A stretch of 64,000 nt of DNA from Candidatus Thalassarchaeum betae (lineage in GTDB: Archaea > Thermoplasmatota > Poseidoniia > Poseidoniales > Thalassarchaeaceae). The stretch is taken from contig PSPG01000004.1 in the NCBI GenBank assembly GCA_003193925.1, positions 110,863 to 174,862 of the forward strand, read 5' to 3'. The notes under the pieces are model-generated. The model worked only from the letters and a program-made list of their open reading frames with translations. It did no database searches and was not told where the DNA came from. The number at the start of each line of letters is the position of its first letter. Within the stretch, counting starts at the first letter, position 1. Shown one piece after another: positions 47,857 through 54,390 of the stretch. Position numbers and translations under genes: made by a program.

Positions 47857-48672
47857 GTGAGCAGGTCAAGTGCATACTCGAACAGACTGCTCGTGTTGGG
47901 CGTAATCGTCCTGCTAGCAGCAGGTGGCACGCAGGGTAGGCCCGGCGGCGTAGGAGGTGATGCCAATGGCGATGGAGAAGTTCCTCTGGCAGGGTGCACC
48001 TGCCACAGTGGACAGCCCGACAATTCGGTCACGCTACTCATCGATGGGCTTCCCTACCACTACGAGGCGGGGGTTGTATACACACTGAGGGTCCAACTCA
48101 TCGGAGGCCCCGATATCGATACGGCCTCTCATACCGGTGGGTTCTCGATGCGCGTCAGCGCCGGCACGCTGGGCGCCGGGGATGGCTTTGAGAACATGGT
48201 CCAGAATTGGGAGGACGACTCGGCGACTCTGACTCACACCGATGCTGGCTCGAAGACCGAAGACAGGTCGTGGCTCATCGTCTGGACCGCCCCATCCACG
48301 GACGAGGAGGTGGTGACCTTCTGGCTTGCTGGGAACTCCGTCAACGGTGACTTGGCGAACTCAGGCCTCGACAGGTGGAACAGGCTCGCCGCATCGGTTG
48401 ACGGGGGTGAGGACGACGGTCGGACCAGGACGGTGTTCTCGGGAGACGGGGGCATCGAGCCTCCAGCCCCCGTCAGCCATGGAGTAGACATCCACCTCAT
48501 GGGAGCAGGGCTCTGGGCCCATTGGCTGGGACTGCTTGGTTTCGCTGCAGTAATAATCGTCCTGCTGTTCTGCGGTCTCTTCCTGCGCTACGGCTTCTCT
48601 CGGCACTACGCCGGACGCAGCAACCTGCTGCGCCTCCGCATCAAGCATCTCCGCAGAGGTGATCAACTGTGA
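47857..48672 (+). CDS. Exported membrane protein with CxCH motif, first gene of the respiratory operon
   Basis: GTG 47857 gives 271 residues. A signal peptide (LLVLGVIVLLAAGGTQG) is followed by GCTCHSGQPDNS, a C-x-C-H motif, a beta-rich domain with WTAPSTDEEVVTFWLAGNSVNGD, and a C-terminal span (WLGLLGFAAVIIVLLFCGLFLRYGF). The domain is paralogous to that of the protein at 3408-4463. It opens the operon encoding the Rieske protein and cytochrome b subunits, so an extracytoplasmic redox or assembly role is plausible. C-x-C-H is not the classical heme c motif. Confidence 0.72.
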   Translation: MSRSSAYSNRLLVLGVIVLLAAGGTQGRPGGVGGDANGDGEVPLAGCTCHSGQPDNSVTLLIDGLPYHYEAGVVYTLRVQLIGGPDIDTASHTGGFSMRVSAGTLGAGDGFENMVQNWEDDSATLTHTDAGSKTEDRSWLIVWTAPSTDEEVVTFWLAGNSVNGDLANSGLDRWNRLAASVDGGEDDGRTRTVFSGDGGIEPPAPVSHGVDIHLMGAGLWAHWLGLLGFAAVIIVLLFCGLFLRYGFSRHYAGRSNLLRLRIKHLRRGDQL

Positions 48673-49118
48673 AGGACGACATCGTGATGAGGCTGCTCAA
48701 GCAGGTAAAGTCTGGTGAGGTCAGCCTGGACGACGCTCGCACTGCCCTCGAGGACGTCAGCCTCTCAGAGGACGCATACAACGTGGCCTTGGACCACGGG
48801 GTCTTCAACTACCCCCAGTCGGGTACGATCGTCCGCGCTACTATTTCCCCCTCCGGCGAGTCGATGCTGGTGGTGCTACTCGCCTTGTGGGGGGTCCTGT
48901 GGACCCTCTTCTGGGCTGGCGCACTGTCTTATGGGCTGTTCAAGGGATGGGACCAGCAACTCCTGTCATTCAACATGGGGATGACCCTGCTGACTATCAT
49001 CATCATGGGAATAGTCTACCTCAAGTTCGTCTTGCCCGATGTCGTGATCGTCAAGCACAGGGGCAACAAATACATCACTCTGAACGACCCTGAGGGATGG
49101 AAGGATTACGAGGTGTGA
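48669..49118 (+). CDS. Small membrane protein of the respiratory operon
   Basis: A GTG start at 48669 overlaps the upstream stop by four bases (GTGA). The 149-residue protein has an N-terminal cytoplasmic helix-rich part (MRLLKQVKSGEVSLDDARTALEDVSLSEDAYNVALDHG), two membrane spans (LVVLLALWGVLWTLFWAGALS and GMTLLTIIIMGIVYLKFVL) and a short C-terminal cytoplasmic strand part. No family recognised. Placement between the CxCH protein and the Rieske gene suggests an accessory subunit or assembly factor. Confidence 0.6.
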   Translation: MKDDIVMRLLKQVKSGEVSLDDARTALEDVSLSEDAYNVALDHGVFNYPQSGTIVRATISPSGESMLVVLLALWGVLWTLFWAGALSYGLFKGWDQQLLSFNMGMTLLTIIIMGIVYLKFVLPDVVIVKHRGNKYITLNDPEGWKDYEV

Positions 49119-49120
49119 AC

Positions 49121-49975
49121 ATGGCGAGGAGATTCAGACTGCGTGCTGTTCCGGGTGCTGGCGAGGAAGTTGGCGAATCGCCCAAGTTAATCGATCGCAG
49201 GGAATTCATGCGGCACTCGTTCAACACCGCTGCTGGAGTAATCACCATGGCCAGCCTGGGAGCTGTGGGATTCGCCTCCCTGCTGATGGGCCAATCCGAA
49301 GCCGACGGGGGAGACTCAGCCCTCCGTTTTTACGTGCCAAGCGGTGCTGAGGACTCGGCATGGTACGGCGACCGGCACCTTGAGCCGATGTCATACCAGT
49401 CCTTCGTCGATGCCGCTGCCTCCTCTACGACAGGGATGTCGGGGGCATCGGGAGTATGGTCCGGGCTGCCCGTGAATGTCCTGTACGTGCCACATACTGA
49501 GAACGCACAGGCCGCCTTGGTCGAGAACAAGCCGCGCTTCCAATTCATGGACGGGTACAACGAGAGCGGGGCCTACGTCGGCTCGGGCTACGAGGTGGAC
49601 GAGGACCCGGCTTACGAGCTACTTTCGATTCACGATAACATGATCGTCACATTCGGCCGATGTCCCCACCTGTGCTGCATCCCGGGATGGCAGTTGGTGC
49701 TCAACGACTTCACCAGTGACCAGTGGAATCCCGGAGGGGTCGATGCCGGTGGCAACAAGCTGTTTTGCATCTGCCACTCGAGCCGGTACGACCCTACCGT
49801 GATTGAGAAGAATCGGAACCGGAACAGATTGAACGGGACTGAGTTCGACTACATAGGAATCAAGCGCACCGGAGGTCCCGCCCCAGTCGGGATGCCTCTG
49901 ATTCCCTTCGTTGTGAATGGGGATATCATCGAGGCTCTGGATGACTTCAAGGACTGGTACACGTATTGCGATTAG
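49121..49975 (+). CDS. Rieske iron-sulfur protein
   Basis: ATG 49121 is preferred over 49097. The 284-residue protein has an N-terminal anchor (FMRHSFNTAAGVITMASLGAVGFASLLMG) preceded by DRREFMR, as in Tat-dependent Rieske proteins. The Rieske ligands are in GRCPHLCCIPGWQL (C-x-H-x2-C) and FCICHSSRYDP (C-x-C-H), with the second cysteines forming the usual disulfide. The cluster domain is extracytoplasmic and takes electrons from quinol at the cytochrome b site. Co-directional with cytochrome b ten bases later. Confidence 0.92.
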   Translation: MARRFRLRAVPGAGEEVGESPKLIDRREFMRHSFNTAAGVITMASLGAVGFASLLMGQSEADGGDSALRFYVPSGAEDSAWYGDRHLEPMSYQSFVDAAASSTTGMSGASGVWSGLPVNVLYVPHTENAQAALVENKPRFQFMDGYNESGAYVGSGYEVDEDPAYELLSIHDNMIVTFGRCPHLCCIPGWQLVLNDFTSDQWNPGGVDAGGNKLFCICHSSRYDPTVIEKNRNRNRLNGTEFDYIGIKRTGGPAPVGMPLIPFVVNGDIIEALDDFKDWYTYCD

Positions 49976-49984
49976 GGTGGGAAA

Positions 49985-50851
49985 ATGATTCAGTTCTGGT
50001 TCTTGTGGCTCTTCATCGCGATAGTGGTCGTCCTGGTCGCATTCACGCTTCGCAAGGAGAGGGACGACATGCCTAGGACCGACATCCTGCGCGCTGTCGA
50101 GAGCAGTGCTGGCAGCATGGGCCTCGCAGAGAAGGCCTTTCTCTGGGCCTTCTCATGGCTCGACACGCGGTTCAGGATCCAGGACTACTGGGGCATGAGC
50201 AGGGACGCCTACCACCACATGCACCGACAGATGCCACTGACTCACGCGGAGAAGTACAAGCTCCGGATCATCTGGTACTGGTACCCGCTGTACTGTCTCG
50301 GCGGGATCTCCTTCCTCGCATTCGTCATCCTGATCATCTCGGGCACGATTCTTGGCCTCTACTACGTTCCGGGAGGCGAAGGCACCCCGTCCCCTGCCTA
50401 CCTCAGCATGGAGTTCATCATGGTTGAGTTACCGTTCGGCTACATCATCAGGTCGATTCACCATTGGGGGACCCACTTCATGGTGGCATCGGTGTTCCTG
50501 CACATGTGTAGGGTGTACTTCACGGGGGCCTACCGCAACCCCCGGGAGTTGAACTGGCTAATCGGCGTCTCTTTGATGTTCTTCACAATCTTCTTCGGAT
50601 ATTCGGGCTACCTGCTGCCCTGGGACAGCCTCGCCTTCGGTGCGGCTACCATCGGCATCAACATGGCCAACTCCACCCCGTTGATCGGAAGCTGGGTTGC
50701 CAATGCCTTGTTCGCCGGCACGACCCTTTCGGCACAAACCGTCATTCGAATGTACTTCCTTCACGTGTTCATCCTACCCGTGATCGTGACCGCGCTTATT
50801 CTCGCTCATCTGTTCATAGTCTGGGTTCAGGGGATAGCGGAGCCGCATTGA
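49985..50851 (+). CDS. Cytochrome b6-like subunit (cytochrome b N-terminal domain)
   Basis: A 288-residue protein with one N-terminal anchor and the four-span heme core. Two heme pairs are visible: SIHHWGTHFMVASVFLHM gives H-x13-H, and RMYFLHVFILPVIVTALILAH gives H-x14-H, the spacing of b6-type cytochromes. FGYSGYLLPWDSLAFGAATIG is the Qo-side PWD segment. It forms a quinol-oxidising core with the Rieske protein and the C-terminal domain in the next gene. The N-terminal 45-residue extension with its own span is unusual. Confidence 0.93.
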   Translation: MIQFWFLWLFIAIVVVLVAFTLRKERDDMPRTDILRAVESSAGSMGLAEKAFLWAFSWLDTRFRIQDYWGMSRDAYHHMHRQMPLTHAEKYKLRIIWYWYPLYCLGGISFLAFVILIISGTILGLYYVPGGEGTPSPAYLSMEFIMVELPFGYIIRSIHHWGTHFMVASVFLHMCRVYFTGAYRNPRELNWLIGVSLMFFTIFFGYSGYLLPWDSLAFGAATIGINMANSTPLIGSWVANALFAGTTLSAQTVIRMYFLHVFILPVIVTALILAHLFIVWVQGIAEPH

Positions 50852-50863
50852 GGGGGTTATCGG

Positions 50864-53647
50864 ATGAGCATGATCGACAGGTTCGGGAGGATCGCTGACA
50901 CCTACATCAGCGAGAGAGACCAACTGCTCGAAGCCGAAGAAGAGAGGCGCAGGGTGTTCGTCGGACACCCCTTCTGGCCTACCGAGGTGCTGCGTGACAG
51001 CATCATACTGGCTTCTATGATGGCTGTCATCGCGTTCTACTCATGGATAATCCCCCCTCCACTCCACAGCGCGGCCGATCCGTTCGCCCAAGCCGGCTTC
51101 GTGTTCCCCGACTGGTACGTGCTGTTCTCCTACGGATACCTGAGGTGGGGCGAGTATCTGCCTCAGTACGTGATTCCAGCCGGGCCCATAGGGGCGTTCT
51201 TCGGCACACCCGTGATAGCATGGAACGCCGGTTGGTGGGGCGCCTTCCTGACCGGCGTCCCAGTGGGCTTGCTCGCTCTGCCACCGTTCCTCGGAGGGAG
51301 GGAGAAGCGTGGTGTCGAAGACCCTTGGTTCGCAACCGCCGGTGCCGTCTATATCGCTCACGTCTGGTTCATCTCGGTGTTCTCGATCAACATCTTCCTC
51401 GACCTGTACTCGAAGGACCTAAGCAACCACTGCTGGGCCAATTCCCATAGCGCCCTGTTATGCGGGAGGCAAGCCCCATGGACGGCCGATGTGTTCAACG
51501 CAGTACCTTGGGTGCTGACCGGCATCTTCGTCTTCGCCATCGTCTACTTCGGAGTGAGATGGTTCACACTCAATTCGATAGGCGCTAGGCTCAATCCGAA
51601 GATGGGCAGGCAGATTGCGATAGGCTCCCTGGTCGCAACGGTCCTGATCTCCGTCGTGACATGGCCGATCTACGATGACGGCTTCTGGGACTACGGCGGC
51701 CTCGGCGCGATGGATGAAGTGGAGGAACTGGACACCATGAGGGGGCAGCCATCGGATACCCTCGTGCACCCCGGCAAGGGCAATGCATGGGCAGAATGGG
51801 AGGACGATTGCCTGCCCTACTCCGAGACCCTGGGCCTCGCAGTGTGGGATGACTTGAGCGAGGACGACGATGCCGACGACTGGTGTGTCATAGCTGCTGC
51901 GCATTGGGTCAATTGGAAGATCTACCAGCCTACGCGAACCACCCTGATCGACTTCGCGGGTGACAACGGGCATGCTGACTCCGAAATCGGCAGGAATGCG
52001 GGGGGCATGGACATCACGTATGTTGGCAACACGGATGGATCTTCGGTGGTAATCACCGAGAGCAGGACATTCGAGGTCGAGGACCTTGGCGTCGCCAGCG
52101 TGCCTGCGGATGTCGGCTGCAACTTCAGGACGAGTGTGCGCGGTGCGGGGACTCAATCGCAGAGCGTCTCCCTGACCGACGAGTCCGGCAGGGTCCTGTG
52201 GCAGAACGAGGGTGGCTCATGCCAGTCCACCACGCTATACCTCCCCTCGGGCTCGAGTTACACCGTGAGCTTCTCATCGACTTCCGAAGGCGTGAACGAG
52301 TCCGTGTCGATGATTGCCGGCTTCTCCGCCGTTGCATACCAGCCCCTGCTTATCGATGATGACGGTACTGCGGTGGTTCGCTCAGAATCATCCCTGAGTC
52401 TGGAAGAGCTCGCCACCCTCTCGCTCGAGAATCCCACTTACCACAAGAACCCAAAGGCGTTGGATGCCAAGCTCATCTACAGCCTGTTCATCCCGTGCTT
52501 GGGGGTAGGCGCGATCGTCTTCCTAGTCATGCGGAGCATGGCTCGCGGGTACGAGTGGGAGATGAACAAGTGCTACGGCTGCGACCTGTGCGACGACGCC
52601 TGTCCGGTTCGCCTGTTCAACGCGGGAGACAAGTTGAACATCATCTACAACACCTGGAACAACGAGGATGACGGGGTCCCGCTGTACTCCTGTCTGACCT
52701 GCACCGCCTGCACCAACGCCTGCCCGCAGTTGGTCGACTACGACGTGTACGTGGACATCCGCCGCAGCCTGATCGTCGGCGGACCGCCCGCCGCGGAGAT
52801 ACCCCACACTCTGCTCCAGGCTGTGCTCGCGGCTGAGGCGGAGGAAGACGCTGATGAGGCGTTCGTCTCAGTAGAGGACTACCCCCTTGACTCCAATGTC
52901 GGGTACTACCCGGGCTGTGTCGACTACATCGACCAGGAGATGATCTTCAGCCACGTCAACGAGGGCACGATGGACCTCGGCGAGACCACGACCGCGGCCT
53001 TCACCCTGTTCGAGGAGATGGGGCAGGAGGTAACCTACCTCGGTCGCGACTTCCTGAAGTGCTGTGGCCATGACCAGAAGTGGCAGGGACTGTCCGAAGT
53101 ATTCGAGAAGCTCAAGGCATACAACACGAAGAAACTCAAAGACAGCGGCATCGACACGCTCCTGACCTCTTGCGCCGAGTGCTTCCGTACTTTCGCGATG
53201 GACTACGAGCTGGACGGCATGAAGGTCATGCACACCACCGAGTACCTGATCGAGAAGGGTTTCGACATGGACCTAGCTGTCGATGACGAAGTCACCGTGA
53301 CTTACCACGACCCCTGCAGGCTCGGCCGACAGATGAACCTCTACGACAAGCCCCGCGACCTAGTGCGGGCTGTCGACGGAGTCAACCTGGTCGAGATGGA
53401 GCACTATGGCGAGGACGCAATGTGCTGCGGGGTCTCCAGCATGATGGCCTGCAACGAGAACAGCAGGGCTCTGCGCCTGCAGCGCTTCGACGAGGTCAAT
53501 GCGACGGGCGCGGACATCATGTTGACGACCTGCCCGAAGTGCGTGGCGCACTTCGAGTGCCTGAAGTTCGAGGGCGACCCCCGGCACGATTTCGAGATCC
53601 TAGACGTGGTGAGCTTCCTCGCCCGCCAGGTGAACTCCAGGAAGTAG
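50864..53647 (+). CDS. Fusion: cytochrome b C-terminal domain/subunit IV + HdrD/GlpC-like iron-sulfur module
   Basis: A 927-residue continuous frame. Residues 40-270 have five spans including FVFPDWYVLFSYGYLR (PDWY at 82-85, the Qo PEWY motif of cytochrome b/subunit IV). Residues 275-530 form an extracytoplasmic beta-rich domain. A span at 537-558 leads into the cytoplasm. There C570/573/576/580 and C610/613/616/620 form two [4Fe-4S] sites, followed by two CCG domains (C685, CC733-734, C770/773; C818, CC854-855, C890/893) as in heterodisulfide reductase HdrD and GlpC. The gene order links quinol oxidation to a cytoplasmic Hdr-like centre. The partner donor is unknown. Confidence 0.9.
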   Translation: MSMIDRFGRIADTYISERDQLLEAEEERRRVFVGHPFWPTEVLRDSIILASMMAVIAFYSWIIPPPLHSAADPFAQAGFVFPDWYVLFSYGYLRWGEYLPQYVIPAGPIGAFFGTPVIAWNAGWWGAFLTGVPVGLLALPPFLGGREKRGVEDPWFATAGAVYIAHVWFISVFSINIFLDLYSKDLSNHCWANSHSALLCGRQAPWTADVFNAVPWVLTGIFVFAIVYFGVRWFTLNSIGARLNPKMGRQIAIGSLVATVLISVVTWPIYDDGFWDYGGLGAMDEVEELDTMRGQPSDTLVHPGKGNAWAEWEDDCLPYSETLGLAVWDDLSEDDDADDWCVIAAAHWVNWKIYQPTRTTLIDFAGDNGHADSEIGRNAGGMDITYVGNTDGSSVVITESRTFEVEDLGVASVPADVGCNFRTSVRGAGTQSQSVSLTDESGRVLWQNEGGSCQSTTLYLPSGSSYTVSFSSTSEGVNESVSMIAGFSAVAYQPLLIDDDGTAVVRSESSLSLEELATLSLENPTYHKNPKALDAKLIYSLFIPCLGVGAIVFLVMRSMARGYEWEMNKCYGCDLCDDACPVRLFNAGDKLNIIYNTWNNEDDGVPLYSCLTCTACTNACPQLVDYDVYVDIRRSLIVGGPPAAEIPHTLLQAVLAAEAEEDADEAFVSVEDYPLDSNVGYYPGCVDYIDQEMIFSHVNEGTMDLGETTTAAFTLFEEMGQEVTYLGRDFLKCCGHDQKWQGLSEVFEKLKAYNTKKLKDSGIDTLLTSCAECFRTFAMDYELDGMKVMHTTEYLIEKGFDMDLAVDDEVTVTYHDPCRLGRQMNLYDKPRDLVRAVDGVNLVEMEHYGEDAMCCGVSSMMACNENSRALRLQRFDEVNATGADIMLTTCPKCVAHFECLKFEGDPRHDFEILDVVSFLARQVNSRK

Positions 53648-53734
53648 CTACCCGAACGCGTAGTCGCGGAGTCTCCTGCATCAAAGTGGCGGCAGGAAGC
53701 ATACATTGAGAATAGGTACGCCTTGGTAGGGGTT

Positions 53735-54067
53735 GTGACGGAGATACCCGACCTGCTTGCGCGGCGTGCGGCTGAGCAGAGCCGTATCAGGATGATGCTC
53801 AATTCGATGCGCGCTGAAGAGGAAGCGATGATCAAGGGGGGAGAAGAGGCTGTGGCATGGGTCAAGAAGGAGTTGTGCATAGGCTGTGACCAATGCACCA
53901 TTGTGTGCGATGACGACGCCATCGAGCTCTATGACACACCGATGGCGAGTCCCATCATGGATGTGGATGTCAACAGGAAAGCGAAGATACTCCGTGACGA
54001 GTGCACCGGTTGCAAGCTATGCGTCCTAGGGTGCCCCACCGATGCGATAATCATGATTGACAGGTAG
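53735..54067 (+). CDS. Two-cluster ferredoxin-like protein
   Basis: GTG 53735 is preferred over TTG 53723. The 110-residue protein has a helical N-terminus (ARRAAEQSRIRMMLNSMRAEEEAMIKGG) followed by CIGCDQCTIVCDDDAI and CTGCKLCVLGCPTDAI. The first motif ends C-D-D rather than C-P, a small departure. It follows the cytochrome b-HdrD fusion and could deliver electrons to or accept them from its cytoplasmic clusters. The N-terminal helix may dock it to the complex; that is inference. Confidence 0.78.
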   Translation: MTEIPDLLARRAAEQSRIRMMLNSMRAEEEAMIKGGEEAVAWVKKELCIGCDQCTIVCDDDAIELYDTPMASPIMDVDVNRKAKILRDECTGCKLCVLGCPTDAIIMIDR

Positions 54068-54075
54068 GCGGGACC

Positions 54076-54390
54076 ATGGGCGAGGAGGACCCCATCAGAT
54101 TCGGTGCCGAGTTCGGCCCGAAGAGGACCGCGAGATCCAGCGGAGTGTCGCTTTCGACATTCAAGACCCTGGTATGGGTGTCGAACATAGGGGGCCTCGT
54201 GCTCTTCGTCATCGGACTCGAGCTGATGGTCGTCCAGCAGTCGTTCTACCTCGGCCTCGCCTGCATCGTCGCAGGCGTGATCATCGCCCTGTTCCCTTCG
54301 AACTACGAGATAGTCGGCATGGAAGAGATCGAGGAGGCTACGGAAAGCCCGCCTCAGGAACTCCCCCTGGACCATGAAGAGAAGCGGTGA
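54076..54390 (+). CDS. Small two-span membrane protein at the end of the respiratory operon
   Basis: A 104-residue protein with two spans (LVWVSNIGGLVLFVIGLELMVV and SFYLGLACIVAGVIIALF), a charged N-terminus and an acidic C-terminal tail. It follows the ferredoxin-like gene by nine bases. No family recognised; it could be a supernumerary subunit of the Rieske/cytochrome b complex. Confidence 0.58.
   Translation: MGEEDPIRFGAEFGPKRTARSSGVSLSTFKTLVWVSNIGGLVLFVIGLELMVVQQSFYLGLACIVAGVIIALFPSNYEIVGMEEIEEATESPPQELPLDHEEKR

Follow-up and report, generated by a model that had tools for sequence, protein, structure and literature searches.

The complex III operon and its fused subunit IV

We analysed a stretch of 64,000 nucleotides (the window, numbered from its first letter) from Candidatus Thalassarchaeum betae, order Poseidoniales (assembly GCA_003193925.1, contig PSPG01000004.1, positions 110,863 to 174,862 of the forward strand). 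The organism belongs to Marine Group II, a group of abundant, uncultured marine archaea whose complex III carries the label "MGII specific", so far without an explanation. Positions 50864–53647 of the window encode a b6f-type subunit IV, an insertion, a last membrane span, a dicluster iron–sulfur (Fe-S) domain and two CCG domains in a single chain, next to the genes for a cytochrome b6-like protein and a Rieske protein. The features of this complex are:

49097..49975, + strand: Rieske iron–sulfur protein (TIGR01416 E=4e-10 over residues 149–234, below the cut-off of that model; motif conserved)
49985..50851, + strand: cytochrome b6-like subunit, 288 amino acids (PF00033, Pfam Cytochrome_B, 7.8e-41; PDB cytochrome b6, 7.7e-40)
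50294..50296, + strand: codon of C104, presumed site of covalent heme c_i attachment (Cys in all 126 Poseidoniales loci covering the site)
50864..53647, + strand: fusion protein, 927 amino acids (single intact open reading frame; matches in 21/21 genera of the order)
50864..51412, + strand: subunit IV core, residues 1–183, with the PDWY Qo motif (TIGR01156, PDB matches, alignment)
51413..52453, + strand: Poseidoniales-specific insertion, residues ~184–530, two spans and an extracytoplasmic β-sandwich (absent from the related loci L044 and L045)
52463..52537, + strand: last membrane span, taking the chain to the cytoplasm (hydropathy; loop charges fit this orientation)
52559..52729, + strand: HdrC-like dicluster [4Fe-4S] domain, residues 566–622 (Fer4_8/Fer4_9, E about 5e-7; HdrC chains, E=1e-6, profile A3)
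52916..53182, + strand: CCG motif 1, C685–C773, including the invariant Glu772 (73/73 fusions; CAEC in 131/131 entries)
53315..53542, + strand: CCG motif 2, C818–C893 (73/73 fusions)
53723..54067, + strand: two-cluster, RnfB-like ferredoxin, the presumed soluble partner (Fer4_21, 1.1e-12; found in 8/8 genomes tested)

The initial annotation, made from the sequence of the window, had described a cytochrome b split as in cytochrome b6f, and this was borne out. The cytochrome b6-like protein, for which the best PDB alignments are chloroplast and cyanobacterial cytochrome b6, contains the b-heme pairs H159-x13-H173 and H260-x14-H275, while the Qo motif PDWY is found at residues 82–85 of the fusion protein. 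The similarity to subunit IV at residues 30–94 is weak and consistent (TIGR01156, E=0.01; b6f subunit 4 chains in the PDB, E=0.0016); when all 927 residues were searched against PDB sequences, EtfD came out on top and the subunit IV matches were weak. The 2Fe-2S ligand motif of the Rieske protein (CPHLCC...CICHSS) is conserved, as in a b6f-type complex, and its N-terminus is twin-arginine-like (DRREFMRHSF). The complex thus resembles cytochrome b6f in its split cytochrome b, its two bis-His pairs, the cysteine motif for heme c_i, the Qo motif and the Rieske protein, but differs in that no CxxCH cytochrome f or c1 was seen in the operon and that its subunit IV bears a domain on the outer side and an Fe-S module on the cytoplasmic side of the membrane.

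The other elements that had been described for the second part of the split cytochrome (an extracytoplasmic β domain, a final span, two four-cysteine clusters and two complete CCG domains, in 927 residues with the PDWY motif) were each located in the reading frame. Among the lineages aligned, the insertion at residues ~184–530 occurs in Poseidoniales alone, and L044 and L045 are otherwise collinear with the fusion. The predicted structure of the insertion had a pLDDT (predicted local distance difference test) of mostly 80–92 over residues 211–550, with the β domain confidently modeled at ~365–493. This β-sandwich resembles GOLD and similar jelly-roll domains at a Z of about 9, a value that may reflect no more than a shared arrangement. 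A position outside the cell agrees with the loop charges and with the conserved cysteines C190/C200 and C419/C453, and loop charges place the Fe-S module in the cytoplasm. Confidence in the full-length model was low in the subunit IV and Fe-S regions, and a separate model of residues 528–927 improved the CCG part only.

The fusion is not an artefact. An assembly or annotation error, as might be suspected in a metagenome-assembled genome in 23 contigs, is ruled out by the intact frames found throughout the order, including in a single-contig genome. Matches to the query were found in 192 of the 193 genomes of the order and in 21 of 21 genera, although a few of the matches were cut by contig ends and some genomes matched through a paralogue alone; the listed full-length matches have 60 to 89% identity and no internal stops. 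Named genomes were scanned through the best 80 matches, all of which have titles that name or fit Thermoplasmatota. The Poseidoniales loci among these (titled Candidatus Poseidoniales, Poseidoniaceae, Thalassarchaeaceae or Marine Group II) contained at least 72 complete fusions and not a single case in which the two parts were separate genes. The isolate names of a few of these loci, such as AG-404-A19, look like those given to single-cell genomes. The initial annotation had proposed to look for the same gene order in other Marine Group II genomes; a five-gene order recurred in at least 61 of these loci.

The iron–sulfur module and the heme c_i cysteine

The dicluster domain has two C-x2-C-x2-C-x3-C motifs, at residues 570–580 and 610–620, followed by the CCG motifs C685/C733-C734/C770-x2-C773 and C818/C854-C855/C890-x2-C893 (PF02754, 7.5e-24). 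The combination of a dicluster domain with two five-cysteine CCG motifs that characterizes the heterodisulfide reductase (Hdr) proteins HdrBC and HdrD was present in all 73 fusions. In a profile search, the cytoplasmic half matched EtfD best (6e-37), followed by HdrB and HdrC. The predicted structure of residues 528–927 has the CCG-domain fold of EtfD and superimposed with a Z of 23.5 on EtfD (root-mean-square deviation 3.1, 255 residues), 23.1 on LutA and 20.7 on HdrB, far above unrelated entries.

Two positions set these proteins apart. In motif 1, EtfD has Thr where Hdr has an additional cysteine, and His583 of EtfD completes one of its clusters and renders it non-catalytic; EtfD has been called an electron wire feeding the quinone pool (PMC13083937). 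In the complex III modules, the Hdr-type cysteine is retained as CCG in 122 entries and replaced in nine (CSG), the nine being consistent with sequences from a sister order. The position of His583 is occupied by Glu, in the motif CAEC, in all 131 entries (some organisms contribute two entries because their loci overlap), compared to Gly in HdrB (CNGC) and His in EtfD (CPHC). The EtfD signature, which combines Thr or Ser in place of the second motif 1 cysteine with the His of CPHC, was thus absent from all Poseidoniales fusions counted, which have CCG and CAEC. Nor, as far as ligation can be read from the sequence, was there an open catalytic cluster of the HdrBC/HdrD type. Glu772 may itself ligate a cluster; its invariance at the His583 position suggests fully ligated, non-catalytic clusters, and hence that the module would act as an electron wire rather than as a disulfide reductase. 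The earlier description of the module as heterodisulfide-reductase-like holds for the fold and the cysteines, but an active site that reduces disulfides is less likely in view of the invariant Glu772.

The best solved match, mycobacterial EtfD (PDB 9ojn; PMC13083937), likewise has a membrane part, a dicluster and two CCG domains in one chain. However, the five-helix heme b membrane domain of EtfD was not found in the fusion, where the membrane part matches subunit IV of a Rieske-type complex, and the motifs are CCG and CAEC rather than CTG and CPHC. HdrBC and HdrD share with the fusion the dicluster, the two CCG domains, the full cysteine set and the fold, but the fusion differs from them in its attachment to a Rieske-type complex, in having Glu rather than Gly next to the final motif 1 cysteine, and in the lack of full-length HdrA in Poseidoniales.

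On the membrane side, C104 of the cytochrome b6-like protein aligns with the cysteine of the b6 motif YCLGGI, to which heme c_i is attached in b6f. Besides Poseidoniales, the cysteine is present in both other families with a full fusion (see below) and in two of three sister-order genera, and absent from the clade of complexes with a plain subunit IV; it also occurs in one module-free family (f31) and in a more distant b6f-like complex. This pattern suits heme c_i as a contact point, but falls short of proof. The distant complex (L205:985-12930), in one Thermoplasmatota genome, stands beside several cytochromes with eight CxxCH motifs and has no Fe-S module.

Variants of the module across the phylum

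Three states of subunit IV were found across the phylum. In most sampled families with a b6-type complex, the gene encodes a plain subunit IV of about 230–270 residues without an Fe-S domain. In the sister order, probably Marine Group III, a fusion of subunit IV and the dicluster (about 340–380 residues) is followed by a separate CCG gene and then by a larger ferredoxin. The full fusion occurs, without the β insertion, in two further families, one of them represented by the Thermoplasmata isolate nzgw66. The initial annotation would have given up the fusion had close relatives encoded two separate proteins here; the CCG part is indeed separate in the sister order, but subunit IV is still fused to the dicluster there. 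This link was kept in every module-bearing lineage sampled, whereas the link to the CCG domains was not. All cluster ligands were conserved in the divergent lineages aligned, save for the change from CCG to CSG in part of the sister order. The series from plain subunit IV through subunit IV–HdrC with a separate HdrB to the full fusion illustrates how an energy-conserving complex can gain an electron-input module.

The gene that takes the place of the ferredoxin also varies: the sister order and a further family have larger ferredoxins, and yet another family has an HdrA–MvhD-like fusion. In the latter, a family with the full fusion, the gene after the fusion encodes an HdrA-like N-terminal domain, a ferredoxin domain and an MvhD (FlpD) domain:

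L174:757-2292: HdrA N-terminal/ferredoxin/MvhD gene directly 3' of the complex III fusion (HdrA2 model, 2e-17; FlpD, 1.4e-17)

The same contig also encodes a fusion of a LUD domain, a dicluster and a CCG domain, of the lactate-utilisation type (L174:5071-7212).

Ferredoxin as a probable electron donor

All of the 30 Poseidoniales genomes sampled contained POR-family proteins, 28 contained NuoD and two contained NuoF. Reduced ferredoxin is therefore probably produced, and in most cases the NADH module is missing from complex I. The only NuoF-type proteins were those of L211 (G017:C20) and L212 (G018:C12), which may reflect either contamination or a genuine gain. HdrA gave no match above the cut-off in the 30 genomes, only part-length matches, and was rejected as the partner of the module in Poseidoniales. 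The ferredoxin gene downstream of the fusion is an operon neighbour in one family and was retained, even where relocated, in the eight genomes tested. Its product scored 44.5 bits against the rnfB model, short of the cut-off of 68.7, and is thus RnfB-like without qualifying as RnfB.

Three facts point to ferredoxin as the partner: the neighbouring ferredoxin gene, the presence of POR with NuoF rare, and the absence of full-length HdrA. We consider it about an even bet (probability roughly 0.5) that the operon encodes a ferredoxin-linked complex III, that is, a b6f-type Rieske/cytochrome b complex whose subunit IV bears a cytoplasmic electron wire; complex III would then probably join complex I as a point at which electrons from ferredoxin reach the respiratory chain. 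The wire would be built like HdrC plus HdrB, or like the soluble half of EtfD, and joined to subunit IV through one extra membrane span. Ferredoxin reduced by 2-oxoacid:ferredoxin oxidoreductases would pass electrons to the dedicated two-cluster ferredoxin encoded alongside, from which they would reach the two CCG clusters, the two [4Fe-4S] clusters and, on the cytoplasmic side of the membrane, heme c_i and b_H, aiding quinone reduction at Qi. Quinol would be oxidised at Qo, with one electron going to the Rieske protein and on to an oxidase. Of this picture, the sequences establish the gene and its fusion, the ligand residues and how well they are conserved, the order of the genes and what the genomes contain; the assembly of the clusters, their facing heme c_i, the partner and the direction of flow are inferences. 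The initial annotation had envisaged a link between quinol oxidation at the Rieske centre and a cytoplasmic Fe-S donor or acceptor, a proposal that fits all our findings; we infer, more specifically, that the link is likely to run inward from the adjacent ferredoxin.

Several observations weigh against this assignment. In one family, the ferredoxin gene lies 1–14 kb away. Ferredoxin can also be oxidised by a complex I that lacks NuoF, which gives these electrons an alternative route. One sister-order genus that keeps the module has Ser at the heme c_i position, so that covalent heme c_i is not strictly required, and the distribution of the cysteine comes down to one or two events on the tree, which may reflect inheritance rather than coupling. 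In a tree of b6 and subunit IV, the module-bearing complexes grouped weakly (47/33), compared to 96.8/89 for the plain clade; a single origin of the module-bearing complexes is therefore plausible, but short of shown. Finally, the low model confidence in the subunit IV and dicluster regions precluded an estimate of the distance from the Fe-S clusters to heme c_i.

Another reading, which we regard as possible but only half as probable, is confurcation at Qi, in which one ferredoxin electron arriving through the Fe-S arm and one electron from the b-heme chain would jointly reduce a quinone. If true, a single proton-pumping complex would act directly as a ferredoxin:Rieske oxidoreductase and would be the respiratory equivalent of the cyclic flow that ferredoxin drives into b6f; a related lineage would have a variant tied to an HdrA–MvhD flavoprotein.

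The wire might instead run outward, driven by the membrane potential, so that a low-potential electron would leave b_H/c_i through the module and reduce a cytoplasmic disulfide, a thioredoxin-like protein or a ferredoxin. The HdrB-like fold, the full Hdr cysteine set of both CCG motifs in Poseidoniales and the HdrA–MvhD-like gene that adjoins the fusion in one related family are in keeping with this direction. It is nevertheless unlikely: the residue that is Gly in HdrB and a ligating His in EtfD is an invariant Glu here, part of the sister order has Ser in place of the extra Hdr cysteine, the 30 Poseidoniales genomes yielded no full-length HdrA, and electron transfer from quinol to ferredoxin is strongly uphill by established redox potentials.

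We consider it similarly improbable that a flavoprotein dehydrogenase or an electron transfer flavoprotein (ETF) docks on the module, as on proteins of the EtfD, LutA and GlpC types, and delivers electrons from β-oxidation or another substrate to complex III. No other solved relative is as close by profile as EtfD (E=6e-37), which also ranks among the nearest by fold, but the fusion lacks the CSG...CPHC signature, and its neighbour encodes a ferredoxin, not a flavoprotein. Moreover, the genome has a separate EtfD-like protein that carries this signature, which lowers the ETF:quinone oxidoreductase reading of the fusion. This membrane protein of 711 residues (L002:1456-3591, G000:C18), with both CSG and CPHC, is likely, judged by these motifs, to be an ETF:quinone oxidoreductase of Marine Group II.

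Least probable of the functional alternatives is that the module exchanges no electrons with the b hemes and is merely tethered, reducing quinone at a site of its own or having a structural or sensory role. The loss of the heme c_i cysteine in one genus that keeps the module would agree with this, as would a model confidence too low for cluster placement. Against it stands the conservation of every cluster ligand in the 73 fusions and in the divergent lineages aligned, apart from the CSG variant in part of the sister order.

An Fe-S arm attached covalently at the Qi side of a b6-type complex, if it works as proposed, would provide a second ferredoxin entry into Marine Group II respiration. Whether heme c_i serves as an entry point for ferredoxin electrons is debated in the photosynthesis field, and with donor and complex physically tied, this role would become testable in a respiratory system.

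The idea of a ferredoxin entry at complex III has a precedent. In one passage, Diamond et al. (2022) noted that complex III of Ca. Angelarchaeales has hdrD-like and rnfB-like genes next to it, and proposed that reduced ferredoxin has an additional entry point there (PMC9038741). The kinds of genes beside Rieske/cytochrome b are the same as here, and the same role was proposed independently, but the likeness rests on the description in that text, which mentions neither a fusion nor heme c_i or ligand sets. Tully (2019) reported that Marine Group II has Rieske and cytochrome b proteins without a canonical bc1 complex, termed its complex III "MGII specific", and discussed an RnfB with the other Rnf subunits missing (PMC6336850); here, an RnfB-like ferredoxin adjoins complex III, and it is likely that the two are the same gene. 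In the open-licence literature in PubMed Central, the scope of our search to the exclusion of subscription papers, neither the fusion and its universality across Marine Group II nor the heme c_i pattern, the sister-order intermediate or the HdrA–MvhD variant was found to be described. The earlier statement that no complex with this covalent arrangement had been described thus stands, within that literature, for the fusion; the underlying idea is not entirely new, having been in print for Ca. Angelarchaeales since 2022.

Flanking genes of the operon

Three further genes complete the operon:

47857..48672, + strand: extracytoplasmic choice-of-anchor V protein that opens the operon and has an invariant C-x-C-H (NF041895, E=4.8e-24; same place in 61 Poseidoniales loci)
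48669..49118, + strand: DUF7318-like two-span protein (PF24002, E=2e-5, just under the cut-off; gene order conserved)
54076..54390, + strand: small two-span protein (homologues occupy the last position of the operon in the sister order and in other families)

The genes overlap or are separated by 8–12 bases, except for 75 bases before the ferredoxin gene. The initial annotation had a ferredoxin-like gene and small membrane proteins following the fusion; the ferredoxin is there, but only a single two-span protein (54076–54390) lies downstream of it.

No CxxCH motif of a cytochrome f or c1 subunit was seen in the operon proteins scanned. The C-x-C-H of the first gene (CLCH or CTCH) was invariant in 61 of 61 Poseidoniales loci; it might be a heme c or metal site of an unusual kind, able to stand in for cytochrome f. 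One related family has CxxCH, and another carries CGNTEGCH at the N-terminus of its cytochrome b. In two other families (L045:788-3613, L046:1420-4644 and L044:6086-7975), cytochrome b6 is extended N-terminally by Big_5 Ig-like domains.

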